The notes under the pieces: model-generated
Seen by the model: the letters and a program-made list of their open reading frames with translations, nothing else
The model's database searches: none
Told to the model about the DNA's origin: nothing
Program-made: the position numbers and the translations under genes
Source: Marinobacterium iners DSM 11526
GTDB lineage: Bacteria > Pseudomonadota > Gammaproteobacteria > Pseudomonadales > Balneatricaceae
Direction: 5' to 3'
DNA: 64,000 nucleotides
Assembly (NCBI RefSeq): GCF_900107855.1
Contig: NZ_FNRJ01000001.1
Coordinates: 186,001 to 250,000 of the forward strand
In this document: positions 51,719 through 60,582 of the stretch, one piece after another
Layout of the letters: each line of letters starts with the position of its first letter
How positions within the stretch are numbered: the first letter of the stretch is position 1

Positions 51719-51795
<77 letters not shown>

Positions 51796-51803
51796 AATTT
51801 TAA

Positions 51804-51839
51804 GAGGCAGACTAGGTACTTACCTGATCTGCCTTTTTT
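51804..51839 (+). terminator. Terminator of the tRNA gene
   Basis: Stem AGGCAGA/TCTGCCT with an inner AGGTA/TACCT stem, followed by six T. Intrinsic terminator 10 bases after the tRNA. Confidence 0.85.
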
Positions 51840-52146
51840 CATTGCGTTTCTTATATTACTCTGTGTAAAAAACCCTCTGACAAAAAATCGCTCCTGCTGA
51901 AATATTAAATTTTTCACCTGACTTTTAAGGTACTTTTGCTCAGCTACCACTAAGAATTGCTCAACCTCAAGTTTGGCATCGGCTTAACAAGGAAGGATTA
52001 CACTAGAATCCGCCCTTGCTGAGGTCATTTGGAGTAGGTATTTTCAACACGCTATGGACTGCCACAATCACGATCAAACTCTTAAATACAATCGGAATTT
52101 TTTCAAATTGGGCCGCGGCAATGGCTGAAAGTATGATTTTTTATCC
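51840..52146. other. A+T-rich intergenic stretch at the left edge of the malonate-type operon
   Basis: About 300 bases without a convincing gene, clearly richer in A and T than the DNA to the left. It marks the change from core chromosome to the accessory operon. I find no integrase and no copy of the tRNA 3' end that would mark an attachment site. Confidence 0.5.
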
Positions 52147-52809
52147 CTACGATCGGAATAGCACTTTCCCCAACGAGGTTATGAAGGGCATAAACTCGCT
52201 GCGAGTCATATCCAAATGATGGAACATTAAATCAGCCGCCAACTTTTCATCTCGTTGCATAATTGCCTCAGCAATAGCAATATGTTCTTGAGCAGATTCA
52301 GCGGTCATACCCGCAACACGGTGGATATGACGCCTGTAAGGGGCGACTTTTCTTCGCACATTAAACACCGCACTCACCAGTTCATCATTACTGGTCATTT
52401 GATACATCAGTTCGTGAAACAGCTTATTTGAGAGAGAGTACTCAGGTACGCCCTCTGCAGAGGCATCAGTTGTTTGCTTGGCCAAAGCCAATAATTCTTT
52501 TTTGTCCTCAACGCTCCCAGATCTGGCGGCAAGCCGCGCACAAGACGATTCAAGCACAGCCAAAAACTCCAACAGGGATAATACATAAGTAAGGCTTACT
52601 TCCTTGACGAACACCCCACGACGCTCCCGATGCTCAACGAGCCCCTCGCTCTGAAGCCTAGCTAAAACATCTCGAATCGGAGTCCTAGATACACCGAATT
52701 CAGCCGCCAGGTCACGCTCGTTTAGACGTTCTCCTGCAATATAAAATCGGTCTAGAAGGCGTTCTTCAATCGTTTTTTTTATCTGATCCCTATCCAAAGG
52801 ACGCTCCAT
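52147..52809 (-). CDS. GntR-family regulator, FCD (FadR-like) subgroup
   Basis: A 220-residue transcription factor. An N-terminal winged helix (LNERDLAAEFGVSRTPIRDVLARLQSEGLVEHRERRGVFV) is followed by an FCD ligand-binding domain with the likely metal-site histidines (NKLFHELMYQM, RRHIHRVAGM, AQEHIAIAEAI, HHLDMTRSEF). It is the last gene of the TRAP/MatB operon and the likely repressor of it; a similar GntR-type regulator controls malonate genes in rhizobia (MatR, GtrA). ATG 52809 has a weak ribosome-binding site; a TTG at 52851 lies inside a hairpin and is less likely. Confidence 0.85.
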   Translation of the reverse strand: MERPLDRDQIKKTIEERLLDRFYIAGERLNERDLAAEFGVSRTPIRDVLARLQSEGLVEHRERRGVFVKEVSLTYVLSLLEFLAVLESSCARLAARSGSVEDKKELLALAKQTTDASAEGVPEYSLSNKLFHELMYQMTSNDELVSAVFNVRRKVAPYRRHIHRVAGMTAESAQEHIAIAEAIMQRDEKLAADLMFHHLDMTRSEFMPFITSLGKVLFRS

Positions 52810-52828
52810 TTTGCACAAAGCTTGATAG

Positions 52829-52858
52829 GTGCCCTTTGAGCTGAAGCCCAAAGGGCAC
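52829..52858 (-). other. Strong stem-loop between dctP and the gntR gene
   Basis: A perfect 10-bp inverted repeat GTGCCCTTTG/CAAAGGGCAC with a 10-base loop, 12 bases after the dctP stop and 19 bases before the regulator start. There is no T-tract. It could attenuate regulator expression or protect the 3' end of the transporter mRNA. Confidence 0.6.
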
Positions 52859-52870
52859 TACACATTAAGA

Positions 52871-53860
52871 CTACTTATTGTATTCCGTCAGTACCTCCAC
52901 TAACAGACCCGCATCATCACCATACGTGCTGGCAAACTCCTGCATATACTTGTCAGTCAGTGAATTGATAAGCTGCTCGTCGTCCTCCTTAAAGCTGATC
53001 ACTGTTTTTGATTGCGACTCCACAATTTTAGCAAGTCGCTCAGACTCCGCATCAAAGTTTTCCGCAGACCACGCGATCGTGTTCCGGACAGCCTCCCTGA
53101 CGGCCTGTTGCTCAGATTCGTCCAATCGATTCCACTTACGGAGGTTCATCAGCAGGGCATAAGGTGTACGAACAATGGACCGCTCAAGCCGTGCTGGAGC
53201 AACTGTAGCCAGCCCCAGGTTGGCATAGGACGAATTGGTTGTAATAACACCATCCACACCACCTGTCTGCAGCTGTAAGAACTGTTCCGCCGCACTCATG
53301 AATACCACTGAAGCTCCAAGGTCTTGCAGAACCGGATCCGTGTACCCACCGACCCCCCTGATCCGTTTACCGGAGAACTCCTTGATGCTGGATATAGGAT
53401 CCGCAAGGAAAACCGTCGTTTCACCAGACGAGTTCACGAAGCCAAGCAACTTGACTTGAGATGTCTCAAACCGCTTCCCCAGTATATCAAGCACACGAGG
53501 GTCATTCGCAAACTCCAACAATTTTGAATCTGTCATCGATTTGGATGGGAAGGGAATTGTGAATATCCGCATCAGATCAACACTGCCAACCGCATAACCA
53601 CCAAACAAGCTATAGATATCTACCGTGCCTCTGGCAGTCGCCATAAACCCATCCCGGCCTTTTACCAGTGACTCCGATGGATATACTTTTACATCGAAAG
53701 CATCAGAGTTGAGCTGGTCAGCAAAGTACTGTGCAGTTTTCCCCCTGAAATCTTCAGTGGGGAAATAATGTCCCAGCCGAAGCACCTCTTTAGCATAAAC
53801 AGACATCGAAAGCATGGAAGCCAACAGAACTAGCATGAACTTTTTACTTAGCGTTATCAT
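52871..53860 (-). CDS. TRAP transporter solute-binding protein (DctP family)
   Basis: A 329-residue periplasmic protein that captures the substrate for a sodium-driven TRAP transporter. A signal peptide (FMLVLLASMLSMSVYAKE) leads to the DctP fold, with the substrate-carboxylate region SGKRIRGVGGYTDPVLQDLGASVVFMSAAEQFLQLQTGGVDGVITT carrying the usual arginine (Arg in GKRIRG). ATG 53860 lies 6 bases after GAGG; an ATG 4 codons upstream is less likely. Operon context (MatB-type ligase) points to malonate or a close dicarboxylate. Confidence 0.85.
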   Translation of the reverse strand: MITLSKKFMLVLLASMLSMSVYAKEVLRLGHYFPTEDFRGKTAQYFADQLNSDAFDVKVYPSESLVKGRDGFMATARGTVDIYSLFGGYAVGSVDLMRIFTIPFPSKSMTDSKLLEFANDPRVLDILGKRFETSQVKLLGFVNSSGETTVFLADPISSIKEFSGKRIRGVGGYTDPVLQDLGASVVFMSAAEQFLQLQTGGVDGVITTNSSYANLGLATVAPARLERSIVRTPYALLMNLRKWNRLDESEQQAVREAVRNTIAWSAENFDAESERLAKIVESQSKTVISFKEDDEQLINSLTDKYMQEFASTYGDDAGLLVEVLTEYNK

Positions 53861-53892
53861 ATAAAGCCTCATTTTTTTTATGTGTATAGCGC

Positions 53893-55170
53893 TTAATAGA
53901 TAGCTGTCAGCGAGGGAAATACCGAAAGAACGGCAATCGCAACAGCGTACAGTACGATGAACGGGATCGTGCCTCGAATGACCTGAGCAAGCGTAAGCCC
54001 AACAACACTATCTCGAACAACGTAAAGACATAGGCCGACAGGCGGCGTTATAACGGCGAAGCACATGTTCACCATAACCACGACACCCAACCAGATGGGG
54101 TCAAAGCCATAGGCAATCATTGCCGGAAATATAATCGGGATGGCGATAATCACGAGAGAGATGGCATCAAGCAGCATTCCGAGGAAAAACAGCATCACCA
54201 TCACAATGATGAAGAATGTCCATTTATTCAGTTCAGCCGAAATAACCATCTCGGCGACATGTTGAGGCACCTGCGCATTGCTGAGGGCATAACTGAACAC
54301 CATTGCGAATGCCAGTATTGCCAACAACATGCAGTTGGTCTTGGTGGATTTGACGAGTGCCTGTGAAAAAGTTTGTACCGATAGTGAGCCTTTTAAGGCC
54401 GAAATGACCAGCGCACCGAAAACCCCTATTGCAGCTGCCTCTGTCGGCGTGGCAACACCATTATAGATACTGCCAATGACGACGATGATCAGGAAAATAA
54501 CTGGCCCCGCAAGCAGTAGCGAGCGGACAAAGCTCAGATTCTCATGCAGTTCAACTTTCACGTCCCCATGGAATTTGCGCTCTTTCATTGAAACGAAGAT
54601 GACATAGCCACACATCATCAATACGATAACGATCCCTGGAACCAGTGCGCCCGAGAACAGGTCAGCAATCGACGTTTCCGTTACAACACCGTACATAATC
54701 AGTGGCAGGCTTGGAGGAATGACCATGCCTAGCCCACTGGAAGCTGCAACGGTACCCGATGACATCTCACCACTGTAGTTACGCTTCATCATTTCGGGTA
54801 TAGCCACACTGCCGATCACCGCCGCAACACCAACGGCCGTTCCGCTAACTGCTCCAAAAATTGCACCTGCTACAATAGCACTGATTGCGATGCCACCCGG
54901 CAGACGGCAAAACCACTTATCTACACTTCGAAACAGGTCTTTGCCAACACCGGAGCTGTTGATAATCTCGCTCATCAGAACAAACAGAGGAATTGCGACC
55001 AGCACAAATTCGGAAACAGTCCCCCAAATGATGTCTGAGACTGCCACAGACGCTTCAATGCCGCCTACATACACGATGCCCAACAGAGCTGAGATTGCCA
55101 GGGAGAAAGCGACTGGTGTCCCCAGCGCAAGCAGTATCAAAAGCGAGGAGATAACGATGATCACCATCAT
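53893..55170 (-). CDS. TRAP transporter large permease (DctM family)
   Basis: A 425-residue membrane protein with about 11-12 segments that forms the translocation path of the TRAP transporter. It has DctM signatures such as FVLVAIPLFVLMSEIINSSGVGKDLF, FGAVSGTAVGVAAVIGSVAIPEM, GMVIPPSLPLIMYGVVTETSIADLFSGALVPG and GVATPTEAAAIGVFGALV. ATG 55170 overlaps the dctQ stop (ATGA); the open frame reaches 17 codons further but that would lie within dctQ. Confidence 0.9.
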   Translation of the reverse strand: MMVIIVISSLLILLALGTPVAFSLAISALLGIVYVGGIEASVAVSDIIWGTVSEFVLVAIPLFVLMSEIINSSGVGKDLFRSVDKWFCRLPGGIAISAIVAGAIFGAVSGTAVGVAAVIGSVAIPEMMKRNYSGEMSSGTVAASSGLGMVIPPSLPLIMYGVVTETSIADLFSGALVPGIVIVLMMCGYVIFVSMKERKFHGDVKVELHENLSFVRSLLLAGPVIFLIIVVIGSIYNGVATPTEAAAIGVFGALVISALKGSLSVQTFSQALVKSTKTNCMLLAILAFAMVFSYALSNAQVPQHVAEMVISAELNKWTFFIIVMVMLFFLGMLLDAISLVIIAIPIIFPAMIAYGFDPIWLGVVVMVNMCFAVITPPVGLCLYVVRDSVVGLTLAQVIRGTIPFIVLYAVAIAVLSVFPSLTAIY

Positions 55171-55682
55171 GCTGCTTCTCCCTGACCAGTATTCACAACT
55201 CGGCTGATATTTCGAAGACATTGCCGTAGCGCCTCAAAAGCCAGTACGACTGACCCAATCGGCATTAACATCTGCGGTATATACAGCGGCATCCCCAAAG
55301 TAGTGGATGATTGCCAATTCAGTTGATACGACAATAACGCCATATCATAAGTGGCATATCCCACTACCAGTGCGAGGATCAGTACGAGCAGATCCACGAG
55401 TGCCATAAAAACCAATTTGGGTGAACCGGAGAGCATATCAACAAATATTGACATGCTGACGTGCCCCCCCTCTCTGTAAACCCGACCCGCCGCAAGAAAA
55501 AGTATTGACGAGACCAAATACCCAGAAACTTCAGACACCCAAACGGAGGAAGAACTGAACAAGAAGCGATTAGCCACCTCCCAGGTTATGGATATCACCA
55601 AGAAAACCGTGATAATTTGAGAAATTTTGAAGCAAAGATCACCCACTTTTCCAAAAGCACTATCTATTATTTTTATAATCAT
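55167..55682 (-). CDS. TRAP transporter small permease (DctQ family)
   Basis: A 171-residue four-helix membrane protein, the small TRAP subunit. It has ITVFLVISITWEVANRFLFSSSSVWVSEVSGYLVSSILFLAAGRVYREGGHVSMSIFVDML, the typical E-V-S...G-H-V-S layout, and a second helical pair. ATG 55682 follows AGAGG by 5 bases. It precedes dctM with an ATGA overlap and follows the MatB-like gene by 32 bases. Confidence 0.88.
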   Translation of the reverse strand: MIIKIIDSAFGKVGDLCFKISQIITVFLVISITWEVANRFLFSSSSVWVSEVSGYLVSSILFLAAGRVYREGGHVSMSIFVDMLSGSPKLVFMALVDLLVLILALVVGYATYDMALLSYQLNWQSSTTLGMPLYIPQMLMPIGSVVLAFEALRQCLRNISRVVNTGQGEAA

Positions 55683-55714
55683 AAGAACCTCTATTTTTAT
55701 AAGCGGTGCTTTAT

Positions 55715-57229
55715 TTAGATAAAAAGGCTTGTATGCTCCGCTCTCAAATGAGCCTTTAAGACTTTTCCCATTGCATTTCTTGGCAGCTCCGCAACAACCT
55801 TCACGGCTTTAGGCACCTTGTATCCTGCAAGGTTTTCTTTGCATACAGCAATGACATTTTCGGCAATCGTGTCGGATTTCTCACCCGGTACCACCACCGC
55901 TACCACGGCCTCACCGAAATCAGGATGGGGCACACCAATGACCGCAGACTCCTGTACCTCAGGGATGGCATCAATGACCAGCTCAACCTCTTTGGGGTAT
56001 ACGTTATATCCTCCTGATATGACGAGATCTTTCCCCCTCCCCGAGATATACAGATAACCTTCTTCATCAAGTCTCCCCAGGTCACCGGTTTTAAACCAGC
56101 CATCACGTGTAAACTCTTCTGCTGTCTTCTCGGGTTTGTTCCAGTACCCTTTCATAACAGCTGGCCCCTTTATCTCGATTGAGCCGACATCACCAACTGC
56201 AACACTATCGCCACTCTCCGCAGTGATCCTTACCTGAACGCCTTCAATGGGAAGGCCAACAGAGCCAATTTTACGTTCCAAATTATAGGGGTTGCTGGTA
56301 ATGATGGCGGATTCCGTCATGCCATAACGTTCCAAAATGACGTGGCCCGTGCGTTCATAGAACTGCTGACTGGACTCTTCAAGCAACGGCGCTGATCCAG
56401 AGATGAACAATCGCATTCTGCGCGTCAATTCTTTATCAAAGCCTGGGGCTGCCAACAGGCGAGTGTAAAAGGTGGGCACTCCCATCATGACCGTGCTCTG
56501 TGGGATGTTTTCCATGACCGTCGTGGTGTCAAACTTCTCCAAAAAGATCATTTTACTCCCGGAGAGCAACACGCAATGCGTTGAAATAAACAGGCCATGT
56601 GCATGAAAGATAGGCAATGCATGTAACAGCACATCAGAGTCATCAAACATCCACGCTTTGGTTAGCGCCTGTGCGTTCGAGGTTAGGTTGGCGTGGGTAA
56701 GCATCGCCCCTTTAGGCTGCCCGGTCGTTCCCGAGGTATAGATAATAATCGCAACATCGGAGCCATCCCTCACCACCGGGGGAGCCAACTCTTCATGGAT
56801 AACATCGGCCAAAAGAGTGGCACATTCACCACTATCGTTAAATATCACCGAGCCAAGGCGAACATGAGCATCAATCGCTTTTTTATTTTCCACGGCCTTT
56901 GCAGCAGAGCAAAAAAATATTGCAGGTTTGCAGTCACAAAGAAAATAATCGACCTCTTTGGGTGTATATGCGGTGTTCAAGGGTACAAAAATACCCCCTA
57001 CCCTGAGGACAGCCAAGTAAAGAAGAAAACCATGCGGACTTTTATTTATTTGGGCCGCGACCCGATCACCAGGTTCAACCCCAAGGTTATGGAGATGCTC
57101 TGAGAAAATAGAGGTTATATTCAACAGATCATTGTAGGTGTACGTCTTTCCTGCGTGCTCGACCATAAATATTTTTGATCCAGACACGGATGCAGATTCT
57201 ATAATTCGACTGAAAAAATTCTCATTCAT
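55715..57229 (-). CDS. matB: Malonyl-CoA synthetase (MatB type)
   Basis: A 504-residue adenylate-forming acyl-CoA synthetase, predicted to make malonyl-CoA from malonate, ATP and CoA. The P-loop YTSGTTGQPKGAM (residues 164-176), LPIFHAHGLF (205-214), MGVPTFYTRLL (249-259), RYGMTES (301-307), the hinge region GRGKDLVISGGYNVYPKE (397-414) and the catalytic Lys489 (RNAMGK) are in place. The HAHGLF, VPTFYTRLL and GGYNVYPKE stretches resemble MatB more than general long-chain ligases, but substrate choice is inferred. It starts 5 bases after the carboxyltransferase gene with AAGGA inside that gene's end. Confidence 0.78.
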   Translation of the reverse strand: MNENFFSRIIESASVSGSKIFMVEHAGKTYTYNDLLNITSIFSEHLHNLGVEPGDRVAAQINKSPHGFLLYLAVLRVGGIFVPLNTAYTPKEVDYFLCDCKPAIFFCSAAKAVENKKAIDAHVRLGSVIFNDSGECATLLADVIHEELAPPVVRDGSDVAIIIYTSGTTGQPKGAMLTHANLTSNAQALTKAWMFDDSDVLLHALPIFHAHGLFISTHCVLLSGSKMIFLEKFDTTTVMENIPQSTVMMGVPTFYTRLLAAPGFDKELTRRMRLFISGSAPLLEESSQQFYERTGHVILERYGMTESAIITSNPYNLERKIGSVGLPIEGVQVRITAESGDSVAVGDVGSIEIKGPAVMKGYWNKPEKTAEEFTRDGWFKTGDLGRLDEEGYLYISGRGKDLVISGGYNVYPKEVELVIDAIPEVQESAVIGVPHPDFGEAVVAVVVPGEKSDTIAENVIAVCKENLAGYKVPKAVKVVAELPRNAMGKVLKAHLRAEHTSLFI

Positions 57230-57234
57230 TATTA

Positions 57235-58341
57235 TTATCCTTCAATACGGTCAATTATTTTTAACGCAATGAGTTCAACATTTACTTTTTTGACATCACC
57301 AGACACAATAATCTGATCAACAACGCCATAAGGCAGGGCCTGAACCTTAACGTTTGCAGAAGCCGTCACTTCAGTGGATGCAGAGGCAAGCGCTATGTAG
57401 AGCCCGCCTGAGACATCTTCTGCAAAGTGGCATATGACCTCACAGCCCTCATCCACCTTGTGATAAATTGCTTCAGACAGCCCATAAAGCAGATAGCTTT
57501 GGTACGCATTTTCATCCTGAGTATTGAGACTGTGGCATGGCCATTCACACGTAAGGGTGAGTGTATTTTCTCGATCCCAGTCTGTTACAGCCGATATCAG
57601 GGCCGCGAGGTCTACAACGGAGGGAGCGGTAGTTCCTGCACAGTACAAACCTGCAGCATTGATGTGCACTCGGGGGGAAACATTCTGCGGCCCTGCTGCC
57701 ACGGGTATATGAGCCATATCCAACTCAGCCGCATTTGGACCGCTGCGAGTAAGAGCCTCTATTAATGCCCTCTTCACCTCGCTTTGACCTTCAGCCCAGA
57801 CCCCTGATGCATCTTTTTCAATACGATTCTCTGCAGCGATAATCGCACTCACATCCTGGTTCCGGTTATCCGAGAGTTTCTCCAGCACTCGAGGACCTGT
57901 CATCGAGACACGAGTAGAGGGCTCATAGATACGCGTATCCCCCCCCATCGCAAGCAGACTGGCTCCACCAAAAACATTTCGCCCCATAAGGACAATGAAG
58001 CGGTGGCCTCCCGTTCGAAACTCAAGAACAGACCTCAGCAACTTTCTAAAAGACGCCTGAATACCGTCTCCTTCGCTTAGTCTTGCTCCTGCCGAGTTGA
58101 GATAAAAAAGAATGGGCCAGCGTTTCTTTGCAGCGTATTCAAATACTTTGCAAATATGGTCAATTTCAACCGCACCAAGAGCGCCTTTATCTGCTGTATT
58201 CTCGGAGCGGATCAATACAACAGGCTGGTCGTGAAAGCGCGCGCACCAACTGGTCACTGAAAGCGGGTTGCCTGTTAAACCAAGCGCCAAAGAATTCAAA
58301 AGTGCGACATGCTCGTCGATGAACGTACGCATGAGCTCCAT
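57235..58341 (-). CDS. Fused MdcD-MdcE-like carboxyltransferase, candidate malonyl-CoA decarboxylase
   Basis: A 368-residue protein with two crotonase-fold carboxyltransferase halves. The N half (about 1-190) resembles malonate decarboxylase subunit MdcD: GALGAVEI (53-60), YLNSAGARLSEG (80-91), FGGASLLAMGG (124-134), MTGPRVLE (147-154). The C half (about 215-368) resembles MdcE: YGLSEAI (286-292), FAEDVSGGLYIALAS (306-320), then VKVQALPYGVVDQI. Both Gly-Gly segments expected to form oxyanion holes are kept. It is compact: separate MdcD and MdcE are each about 240-290 residues. No biotin motif, acyl-carrier subunit (MdcC) or MdcA gene is nearby. The first gene of the operon; ATG 58341 follows AAGGAAA. 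Decarboxylation of malonyl-CoA is my inference; a transcarboxylase or methylmalonyl-type activity is possible. Confidence 0.65.
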   Translation of the reverse strand: MELMRTFIDEHVALLNSLALGLTGNPLSVTSWCARFHDQPVVLIRSENTADKGALGAVEIDHICKVFEYAAKKRWPILFYLNSAGARLSEGDGIQASFRKLLRSVLEFRTGGHRFIVLMGRNVFGGASLLAMGGDTRIYEPSTRVSMTGPRVLEKLSDNRNQDVSAIIAAENRIEKDASGVWAEGQSEVKRALIEALTRSGPNAAELDMAHIPVAAGPQNVSPRVHINAAGLYCAGTTAPSVVDLAALISAVTDWDRENTLTLTCEWPCHSLNTQDENAYQSYLLYGLSEAIYHKVDEGCEVICHFAEDVSGGLYIALASASTEVTASANVKVQALPYGVVDQIIVSGDVKKVNVELIALKIIDRIEG

Positions 58342-58360
58342 GGTATTTCCTTTTTGTTTT

Positions 58361-58372
58361 TTGGTATACCAA
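58361..58372. promoter_or_regulatory. Palindromic operator candidate for the GntR regulator
   Basis: TTGGTATACCAA, a perfect 12-base palindrome 19 bases upstream of the first gene of the malonate-type operon. It fits the TGGT...ACCA pattern of FadR/FCD-type operators and the GTATAC core reported for MatR-like proteins. Confidence 0.6.
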
Positions 58373-58396
58373 ATATAGCAACTGAAGCACCATATG

Positions 58397-58423
58397 AGTA
58401 TATTAGACTTTAGTCTAAATCAA
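58397..58423 (-). promoter_or_regulatory. Possible operon promoter with a second palindrome in its spacer
   Basis: On the minus strand TTGATT (58418-58423) and TATACT (58397-58402) are 15 bases apart, short for sigma-70 but usable if a neighbouring register is taken. The gap holds the inverted repeat TTAGACT-TT-AGTCTAA (58403-58418). A regulator bound there would block polymerase. Confidence 0.4.
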
Positions 58424-58905: not shown

Positions 58906-60582
58906 TCATGCCCCTCCCTCCTTTTGCACACGATACGCGACCTGTCGTCTTGTAACGCCGAGCATTTTCGCTGCCTGAGTCAGATTACCGCCCGACTTTT
59001 CCACAGCCATGTGATAGATGCGATTCAGATGCGTTTCCATATCAACTGAACTGCCAATCAGTGACTCATAGAGGCCATCAAGACCGGCCTCTTCCAGTTT
59101 GTGCACCTGCCCGCCGGGACTGAGCCCCGCGCCGGAAATCGACAGCCCTGCCTTGCCCGGGAACAGATGCTCGATTTCGATCGGGCCGCCTTCTGGCGCG
59201 AGGAGGACCGCTCGCTCTATCAGATTTTCAAGTTCACGTATGTTGCCCAGCCATTTGTATTCAGTCATGGCTTGCATTGCGCCGTCCGTAATCCCACTGA
59301 TGGACTTGCCGTAGAGCGGCAGAAACTTGTCCAGCATGGCCTGAGCCAACAGCGGGATATCCGATTTTCGCTCACGCAACGGAGGTATGTTGACCGGGTA
59401 TGTCGCTATTCGATAGAAAAGATCCGCCCTGAAGGCACCATCCGCAATTGCCTTCTCCAGATTCACATTAGTTGCGGCAATGAGCCGAACATCCACCTTG
59501 CGTGTCTGGTTGTCACCCAACCGTTCAACTTCCCCACTTTGAAGCACACGCAGCAGTTTGACCTGCGCCGAGGGCGAAAGATCGCCAACCTCATCAAGAA
59601 AAAGGGTACCTCCATTTGCCCGCTCGAAACGTCCGGGCCGTGACTCCTGAGCGCCCGTGTAGGCGCCTCGGCGAACGCCAAACAGCTCGGCTTCAATCAA
59701 TTCATTTGGGATGGCTGCGCAGTTAATGGCTACAAATGGCTGCTCGGCACGGGCACTATTGTCATGCAACCATTTGGCAAAGACCTCCTTGCCCACGCCT
59801 GGTCCACCGAGAAGCAGCACATTGATCGGTCCACGACAGGCTTTTTGCAAAAGGTCGAACGCCTTTGCAAAACCGGGAGACTGGCCGACCAGATTCCCCC
59901 GATTCAGCGGCTCAAGTCTGGGCCTTGAGCCGCGCAACTGCTGCAGCTGCTCTTCAAGATCGCAGCCGGAGGTCGGCACCTGATCCATTCTGAACAGGTC
60001 AATGTAGCTGTCATCGTTCCACTCTTCCGCGGGTTTCCCGATGATCGTGCAGTGAGGATCCCCCTTACAGGCACATTCAACCTCTCGAAATACGATGAAC
60101 CTTCGGAAAAACGTACTGACATAACCTGAGGCATAACCGACCAGGGTCCAGCAGCCAACATCGTCGCCAACACCATACTTCTGGATATGCGCTTCAGCTT
60201 CCCAGGACCCTTCCATGCGGACATGTCCATCGAAGCTGCCTTTCTCCCAATCGATATCGGCCTGAGTGATTTCGGCCTTGACCTGCCCTTCGAAAGCATG
60301 AAGCTCGGGACCAATCTTGAATACATCATAGTCATCACCGGCCCCGTACAGCTGCATGGCAACCTGAGCATCAAGCTGACCGGCCTTGAACCCCATCCGA
60401 ATCAGGACCCCACGGGCACGTGCCTCGCTCATATTTGAGAACAGCTCGTCTCTCAAACTGCTCAAGGCTTGCGTATGCAGCAGCAACATCCGATTTTCAC
60501 ACAACCAGATGTGACCATTGTCGATATTGAATTTGAGTTTCGAGCGCAGATTGAAATGCTCGATCAATCTTTTCTCACTCAT
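58906..60582 (-). CDS. Sigma-54 activator of the XylR/DmpR family
   Basis: A 558-residue enhancer-binding protein predicted to sense an aromatic compound. The XylR_N/V4R sensor (residues about 1-200) contains His95 and Trp127 as candidate phenol contacts, and C144, E167, C170, C178 with the 23-3-8 spacing of the MopR zinc ligands. The AAA+ domain (about 228-470) has Walker A GGPGVGKE (259-266), GAYTGA (306-311) in place of GAFTGA, and Walker B GGTLFLDEVG (324-333). A Fis-type helix-turn-helix (GNLTQAAKMLGVTRRQVAYRV) ends the protein. The genes it controls are not evident in the window. Confidence 0.9.
   Translation of the reverse strand: MSEKRLIEHFNLRSKLKFNIDNGHIWLCENRMLLLHTQALSSLRDELFSNMSEARARGVLIRMGFKAGQLDAQVAMQLYGAGDDYDVFKIGPELHAFEGQVKAEITQADIDWEKGSFDGHVRMEGSWEAEAHIQKYGVGDDVGCWTLVGYASGYVSTFFRRFIVFREVECACKGDPHCTIIGKPAEEWNDDSYIDLFRMDQVPTSGCDLEEQLQQLRGSRPRLEPLNRGNLVGQSPGFAKAFDLLQKACRGPINVLLLGGPGVGKEVFAKWLHDNSARAEQPFVAINCAAIPNELIEAELFGVRRGAYTGAQESRPGRFERANGGTLFLDEVGDLSPSAQVKLLRVLQSGEVERLGDNQTRKVDVRLIAATNVNLEKAIADGAFRADLFYRIATYPVNIPPLRERKSDIPLLAQAMLDKFLPLYGKSISGITDGAMQAMTEYKWLGNIRELENLIERAVLLAPEGGPIEIEHLFPGKAGLSISGAGLSPGGQVHKLEEAGLDGLYESLIGSSVDMETHLNRIYHMAVEKSGGNLTQAAKMLGVTRRQVAYRVQKEGGA

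Follow-up and report, generated by a model that had tools for sequence, protein, structure and literature searches.

The stretch of DNA analyzed here (64,000 nucleotides from Marinobacterium iners DSM 11526, contig NZ_FNRJ01000001.1, positions 186,001 to 250,000; hereafter the window) carries an operon with a putative role in the breakdown of malonate-type acids, in which a small protein of the carboxyltransferase fold, here called CT, lies next to a MatB-type malonyl-coenzyme A (CoA) synthetase. Six open reading frames (ORFs) are located on the minus strand at positions 52147-58341 and are read in the order CT-MatB-DctQ-DctM-DctP-FCD/GntR (Table 1), with successive spacings of 5 bases, 32 bases, one overlap, 20 bases and 19 bases. 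An earlier note, made from the sequence alone, had described a one-strand operon joining a carboxyltransferase-fold protein, MatB, a tripartite ATP-independent periplasmic (TRAP) transporter and an FCD-type GntR regulator, and family scans bore this out for all six ORFs. MatB reached 699.8 bits against the malonyl-CoA synthase family NF005702 (cut-off 558), and DctQ, DctM, DctP and the regulator are clear, ordinary members of their families. At the level of the operon, the statement of the same note that no MatA, MdcA, MdcC or biotin protein is present was also correct.

Table 1. Features of the operon and its surroundings in the window; the last row gives related genes on contigs from other genomes.
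Feature	Position	Strand	Basis
CT, single-chain two-domain carboxyltransferase-fold protein, 368 aa, proposed decarboxylase	57235..58341	-	family scans, homologue, model
MatB-type malonyl-CoA synthetase	55715..57229	-	NF005702; R. palustris MatB 4fuq, E 1.5e-145
DctQ, small TRAP permease	55167..55682	-	PF04290
DctM, large TRAP permease	53893..55221	-	PF06808; start probably ~55170 from comparison with L100
DctP, TRAP substrate-binding protein	52871..53872	-	PF03480
FCD-type GntR regulator	52147..52851 (maximal ORF; start probably internal, ~52803)	-	PF07729 + PF00392
Palindrome 5′ of CT (TTTGGTATACCAAA), candidate operator for GntR	58360..58373	.	L100 has TTTGGCATACCAAA at equal offset
Second palindrome (TTAGACTAAAGTCTAA), candidate operator or promoter element	58403..58418	.	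L100 has similar TAGACTAAGGTCTAATAT at equal offset
tRNA-Met	51719..51795	+	same-species homology ends ~48 bases beyond
Sister-family CT genes directly downstream of MatA	L066 12857-14059; L084 8768-9889; L097 7469-8572; L098 7423-8607

A second copy of the operon, with the same six genes in identical order, was found on a contig of an uncultured Marinobacter (L100). The CT proteins of the window (P0001, from genome G000) and of this contig (P0004) are 60% identical over their full length, and the remaining identities amount to 74% for MatB, 73% for DctQ, 88% for DctM, 76% for DctP and 79% for GntR. Upstream of CT, the offsets of two palindromic elements and of the ribosome-binding region are equal in both operons, and the sequence AAAAAGGAAATACC, which is common to both, supports the CT start. 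Since a full-length homologue of this similarity occurs in the same six-gene operon, CT is not a chance ORF, and the shared gene order, identities and upstream offsets indicate that the operon is a conserved unit. Synonymous sites of CT are saturated, so that the ratio of nonsynonymous to synonymous substitution rates was not computable. The recurrence of the six-gene set in a second genome argues for a real, probably new variant of malonate breakdown.

In terms of sequence, CT lies at the edge of the known families. It scored 22.3 bits against Pfam Carboxyl_trans (cut-off 22.3; residues 41-158), 50 bits against NCBIfam AccD (cut-off 317) and 41.8 bits against the malonate decarboxylase beta subunit MdcD (cut-off 278), with all family matches falling within residues 23-158. 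The C-terminal half gave no family match, with no MdcE score above threshold and no profile match to MdcE. A profile built from the window family matched MdcD with a probability of 86.2 (E 4.9e-6, 192 columns). For P0001, the AccD score of the N-terminal half slightly exceeds its MdcD score, whereas P0004 scores higher with MdcD. A tree of the N-terminal halves did not settle the placement, grouping CT with AccD (89/73) and giving p-values in the approximately unbiased test of 0.36 for a grouping with the sister family described below and 0.29 for one with MdcD. An origin of CT as an AccD paralogue was considered and rejected, as the AccD-like score is confined to the N-terminal half and an ordinary AccD is encoded separately in the genome.

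The fold was recognized over nearly the full length of CT. An AlphaFold model of CT computed from a seven-sequence alignment (mean predicted local distance difference test, pLDDT, 70.1; predicted template modeling score 0.75) was used for structural comparison, and a single-sequence model with a pLDDT of 37 was set aside. Foldseek matched the model to two-domain single-chain carboxyltransferases over about 370 columns, i.e., the full length, at a high root-mean-square deviation (rmsd), which would be expected with a different mutual arrangement of the two halves. VIA-align superimposed it on the Shewanella acetyl-CoA carboxyltransferase 9kkm (Z 21.0, 331 residues, rmsd 3.0) and on MdcD (5vip_B; Z 18.8, 194 residues, rmsd 3.2). 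Together with the motif alignment, these comparisons support two carboxyltransferase domains with oxyanion-hole loops of the crotonase superfamily. MdcE chains were absent among the VIA-align matches listed, which is no evidence against an MdcE-like C-terminal half. Of the proposal that MdcD-like and MdcE-like folds are fused in CT, the architecture stood, but the MdcE-like half is recognized by structure only. In the literature searched, no report of a fused MdcD-MdcE was found. The single-chain two-domain architecture itself is not unusual, as the biotin-dependent enzymes PccB, MmdA and transcarboxylase 12S share it and the fold; these have about 510 residues in comparison to 368, work with biotin-protein partners and show marginal sequence similarity to CT. 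What distinguishes CT is its small size, its divergence and its operon context.

For the MdcD-MdcE enzyme of P. aeruginosa, the oxyanion hole has been assigned to MdcD Val121 and Gly162, with CoA contacts that include Leu123 and Arg180 (PMC5534430). The aligned residues of CT are Ala86 (Val121), Gly126 (Gly162), Leu88 (Leu123) and Arg144 (Arg180), so that, as judged from this alignment, the oxyanion-hole and CoA-contact positions are kept. Close to the malonyl group lie MdcE Gln100, Tyr102 and Ser142; activity drops ten-fold in the mutants S142A and Q100E and is lost in Q100E/Y102F (PMC5534430). Ser142 aligns with Ser311 of CT, the mapping of the C-terminal half being tentative due to the low sequence support of the alignment there. 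Since P. aeruginosa MdcD-MdcE decarboxylates malonyl-CoA itself with a kcat of 2.3/s (PMC5534430), this chemistry is precedented for the fold.

Other decarboxylases of malonyl thioesters were searched for in the genome. MatA (PF05292) was not detected in G000. The profile did match in congeners and family members, which served as positive controls, and MatA is present in four of the six congeners tested. Using a congener MatA as query likewise yielded no match in G000 or in a complete genome of the same species (G775). A matA elsewhere that carries the flux, which the earlier note had named as a finding that would overturn its proposal, was hence not encountered. The search of G000 for MdcA (PF16957) yielded only a partial match of 25.8 bits inside a 544-aa CoA-transferase-like protein, and an E. 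coli control also matched PF16957. An MdcA encoded elsewhere and carrying the flux was consequently discarded as an explanation, this protein being the sole match. This protein (L107 925-2559), which resembles acetate CoA-transferases and barely clears the Pfam threshold for MdcA, is misleading in searches for MdcA. No MdcC or prosthetic-group genes were found in the operon or adjoining it, a genome-wide search for them not having been made, and neither copy of the operon contains a biotin carrier or biotin carboxylase. With MdcA not found, family scores far below the cut-offs and two of three MdcE residues missing, CT is by its sequence not a member of the Mdc family. It shares with MdcD-MdcE the two carboxyltransferase-fold domains, but differs in being one chain instead of two, in lying in an operon without MdcA, MdcC and prosthetic-group genes, and in that it would act, if at all, on CoA rather than acyl carrier protein (ACP) thioesters.

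The closest known arrangement is matPQMAB of Sinorhizobium meliloti, which combines a TRAP transporter, MatA, MatB and a GntR regulator (PMC5237526). In the homologous set of Rhizobium sp. WL3 the order is GntR-DctP-DctQ-DctM-MatA-MatB, with MatA beside MatB. The window operon has in common with this system the TRAP transporter, MatB (~51-53% identical) and the FCD/GntR regulator (~36%); it differs in gene order and in that the unrelated CT is found in place of MatA, a member of the MCD family. Because MatA occupies the slot of CT in the rhizobial operon, displacement of MatA by CT is, by analogy, the best reading of the locus. The operon would probably be new as a variant of MatB-type malonate breakdown, one whose final step is taken by a non-homologous enzyme. 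In the proposed scheme, DctPQM would import a malonate-type dicarboxylate under the control of the GntR regulator, MatB would activate it to the CoA thioester, and CT would decarboxylate the malonyl-type thioester to the acyl-CoA without biotin. CoA binding and the oxyanion hole would be contributed by the N-terminal domain of CT, and the C-terminal domain would hold the carboxylate. Based on the sequence comparisons and the model, it appears moderately likely that CT decarboxylates the thioester made by MatB, the acid being malonate or a substituted malonate. The earlier note had called this a fourth arrangement of malonate decarboxylation, with malonyl-CoA as substrate. It is supported in part, by MatB with a single-chain CT in the slot of MatA, no MatA or MdcA found in the genome, TRAP and GntR genes as in matPQMAB, conservation of the operon in a second genome, and the kept oxyanion-hole and CoA positions; malonyl-CoA as the substrate was not established, given the loss of the MdcE Gln/Tyr pair, the altered MatB pocket (see below) and the distant DctP.

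Several observations weigh against this interpretation. According to the tentative mapping mentioned above, MdcE Gln100/Tyr102 are replaced in CT by a conserved Cys269-His270-Ser271. The operon is also known from only two genomes. No other full-length relative of CT turned up in a sample of the phylum (398 genomes), in the order (391) or the family (116), or in plasmids and viral contigs. A first contig scan with CT alone found no relative, but its peptides fell outside the conserved motifs; a second scan, which covered the genomes of 84,980 species and was steered by aligning CT with an artificial copy scrambled outside six motifs, returned one true relative, that on L100, which is a lower bound because only two patterns were used. 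Furthermore, the Marinobacter genome has a MatA elsewhere, beside a short-chain dehydrogenase gene as in the congeners, and this MatA looks like a fatty-acid-linked copy rather than a part of a malonate operon.

A sister family of single-chain carboxyltransferase proteins (P0002/P0003 type), which has no name in the libraries searched, occurs in five genomes (G408, G616, G808, G811 and G842) and is linked to MatB in four of them. In G408, reached via the nearest MatB in the family, GntR and MatA precede the gene for a single chain of 400 aa, whose N-terminal half is MdcD-like (64 bits) and whose C-terminal half matches MdcE weakly (19.5 bits, below the cut-off). This GntR-MatA-CT arrangement with a divergent MatB is also present in G616, G808 and G811, so that the sister gene adjoins MatA in four genomes. 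In G842 it is located behind phosphonate genes and away from matAB (L096 4999-8467); these genes resemble phosphonoacetaldehyde hydrolase and 2-aminoethylphosphonate transaminase. The sister proteins are similar to CT in chain size and 17-18% identical to it, and the two families match over their full length in a profile-profile comparison with a probability of 93.9 (E 1.5e-7, 312 columns), which is better than the match of the window family to MdcD. They retain the equivalent of Gln100 and have Phe at position 102, with the Ser equivalent present in three of the four members adjoining MatA. Since the family keeps Gln and Phe and yet adjoins MatA, its role there is not obviously decarboxylation. 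As single-chain CTs are mostly found beside MatA, a replacement of MatA by CT is weakened as a general rule and stands for the window operon; taken together with the MatA of the Marinobacter genome, it holds per operon and not per genome.

These findings bear on the possibility that CT is an accessory to MatB, acting as regulator, scaffold or in thioester editing, as the sister proteins next to MatA may do, with malonyl-CoA passing to fatty-acid synthesis or to an unrecognized decarboxylase. The sister genes next to MatA and the altered malonyl-binding residues of CT are in line with such a role. However, no other known malonyl-CoA decarboxylase was found in G000, and the oxyanion-hole glycine, Arg144 and Ser311 are all kept although a protein serving purely as a scaffold could do without them, which makes an accessory function unlikely. 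Still less probable is that CT is a true carboxyltransferase which moves the carboxyl group from a malonyl-type thioester to the biotin carrier of the cell or to another acceptor. Its best structural matches do include biotin-dependent carboxyltransferases and transcarboxylase 12S, and the slightly higher AccD score of P0001 and the grouping with AccD in the tree, which is not decisive, point in the same direction; opposed to this are the lack of biotin genes in both operon copies, the preference of P0004 for MdcD and a chain about 150 residues shorter than that of biotin-dependent single-chain enzymes.

With decarboxylation by CT as the preferred reading, the identity of the acid has to be considered. 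In the window MatB, Thr207 and Met306 of the Rhizobium enzyme correspond to Ala210 and Ile309; the alignment reference was R. palustris MatB (Thr208/Met307), from which a one-residue offset to the Rhizobium numbering was deduced. Both CT-linked MatBs (window and Marinobacter) carry Ala/Ile; in nine further MatBs the first of these positions is Thr or Val and the second Met. Apart from these changes, the pocket surroundings are conserved. Wild-type MatB shows low activity on most substituted malonates (PMC6164871), and the engineered Rhizobium variant T207G/M306I has been used for making malonyl-CoA analogues (PMC8044089). Ala/Ile at these two C2-tolerance positions suggests that the acid may be a C2-substituted malonate. 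As a lead from sequence, the pocket, the changed CT residues and the divergence of DctP (only ~25% identical to its rhizobial TRAP partner) point to such an acid about as strongly as to malonate. A broader proposal, in which CT would found a new family of acylmalonyl-CoA decarboxylases that are single-chain and independent of biotin, and the operon would be dedicated to a malonate substituted at C2 (methyl- or ethylmalonate, for example), with transporter, MatB pocket and decarboxylase shifted together, is rather doubtful. It is very improbable that the pocket changes and the distant DctP reflect a move of MatB to an unrelated carboxylic acid and of CT to a different reaction of the crotonase fold, of hydrolase type or other, as MatB lies well inside the malonyl-CoA synthase family, its pocket surroundings are otherwise conserved, and the pairing of MatB with a carboxyltransferase fold fits the needs of a malonyl thioester.

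Regarding its genomic setting, the operon is part of strain-specific DNA beside a tRNA gene, since homology with the complete same-species genome stops ~48 bases past tRNA-Met and resumes ~60 kb away. This strain-specific region begins just past the tRNA-Met gene (window positions 51719-51843 and onward; G000:C11:237719 to about 298121). At the same site the complete genome carries ~8 kb of other DNA and no such operon; the tRNA-Met locus is a strain-variable insertion site. The region additionally contains a XylR/MobR-type sigma-54 activator of the phenol-degradation regulator family (window 58906-60582), a meta-cleavage and phenol hydroxylase-like gene set as read from the ORFs (L062, G000:C11:255001-274000) and, downstream, several siderophore-type genes encoding TonB receptors, ABC exporters, AraC regulators and Fe transport (L063, G000:C11:274001-293000).

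If the proposed reaction is correct, CT would add a further class of enzyme to malonate breakdown, next to MatA and the complexes Mdc and Mad. It would also offer a small model, in one chain, of how a carboxyltransferase-type enzyme can decarboxylate without ACP or biotin. That unnamed CT proteins occur repeatedly in malonate operons is shown by the sister family linked to MatA, and the hint from the MatB pocket makes the catabolism of C2-substituted malonates testable with two purified proteins.

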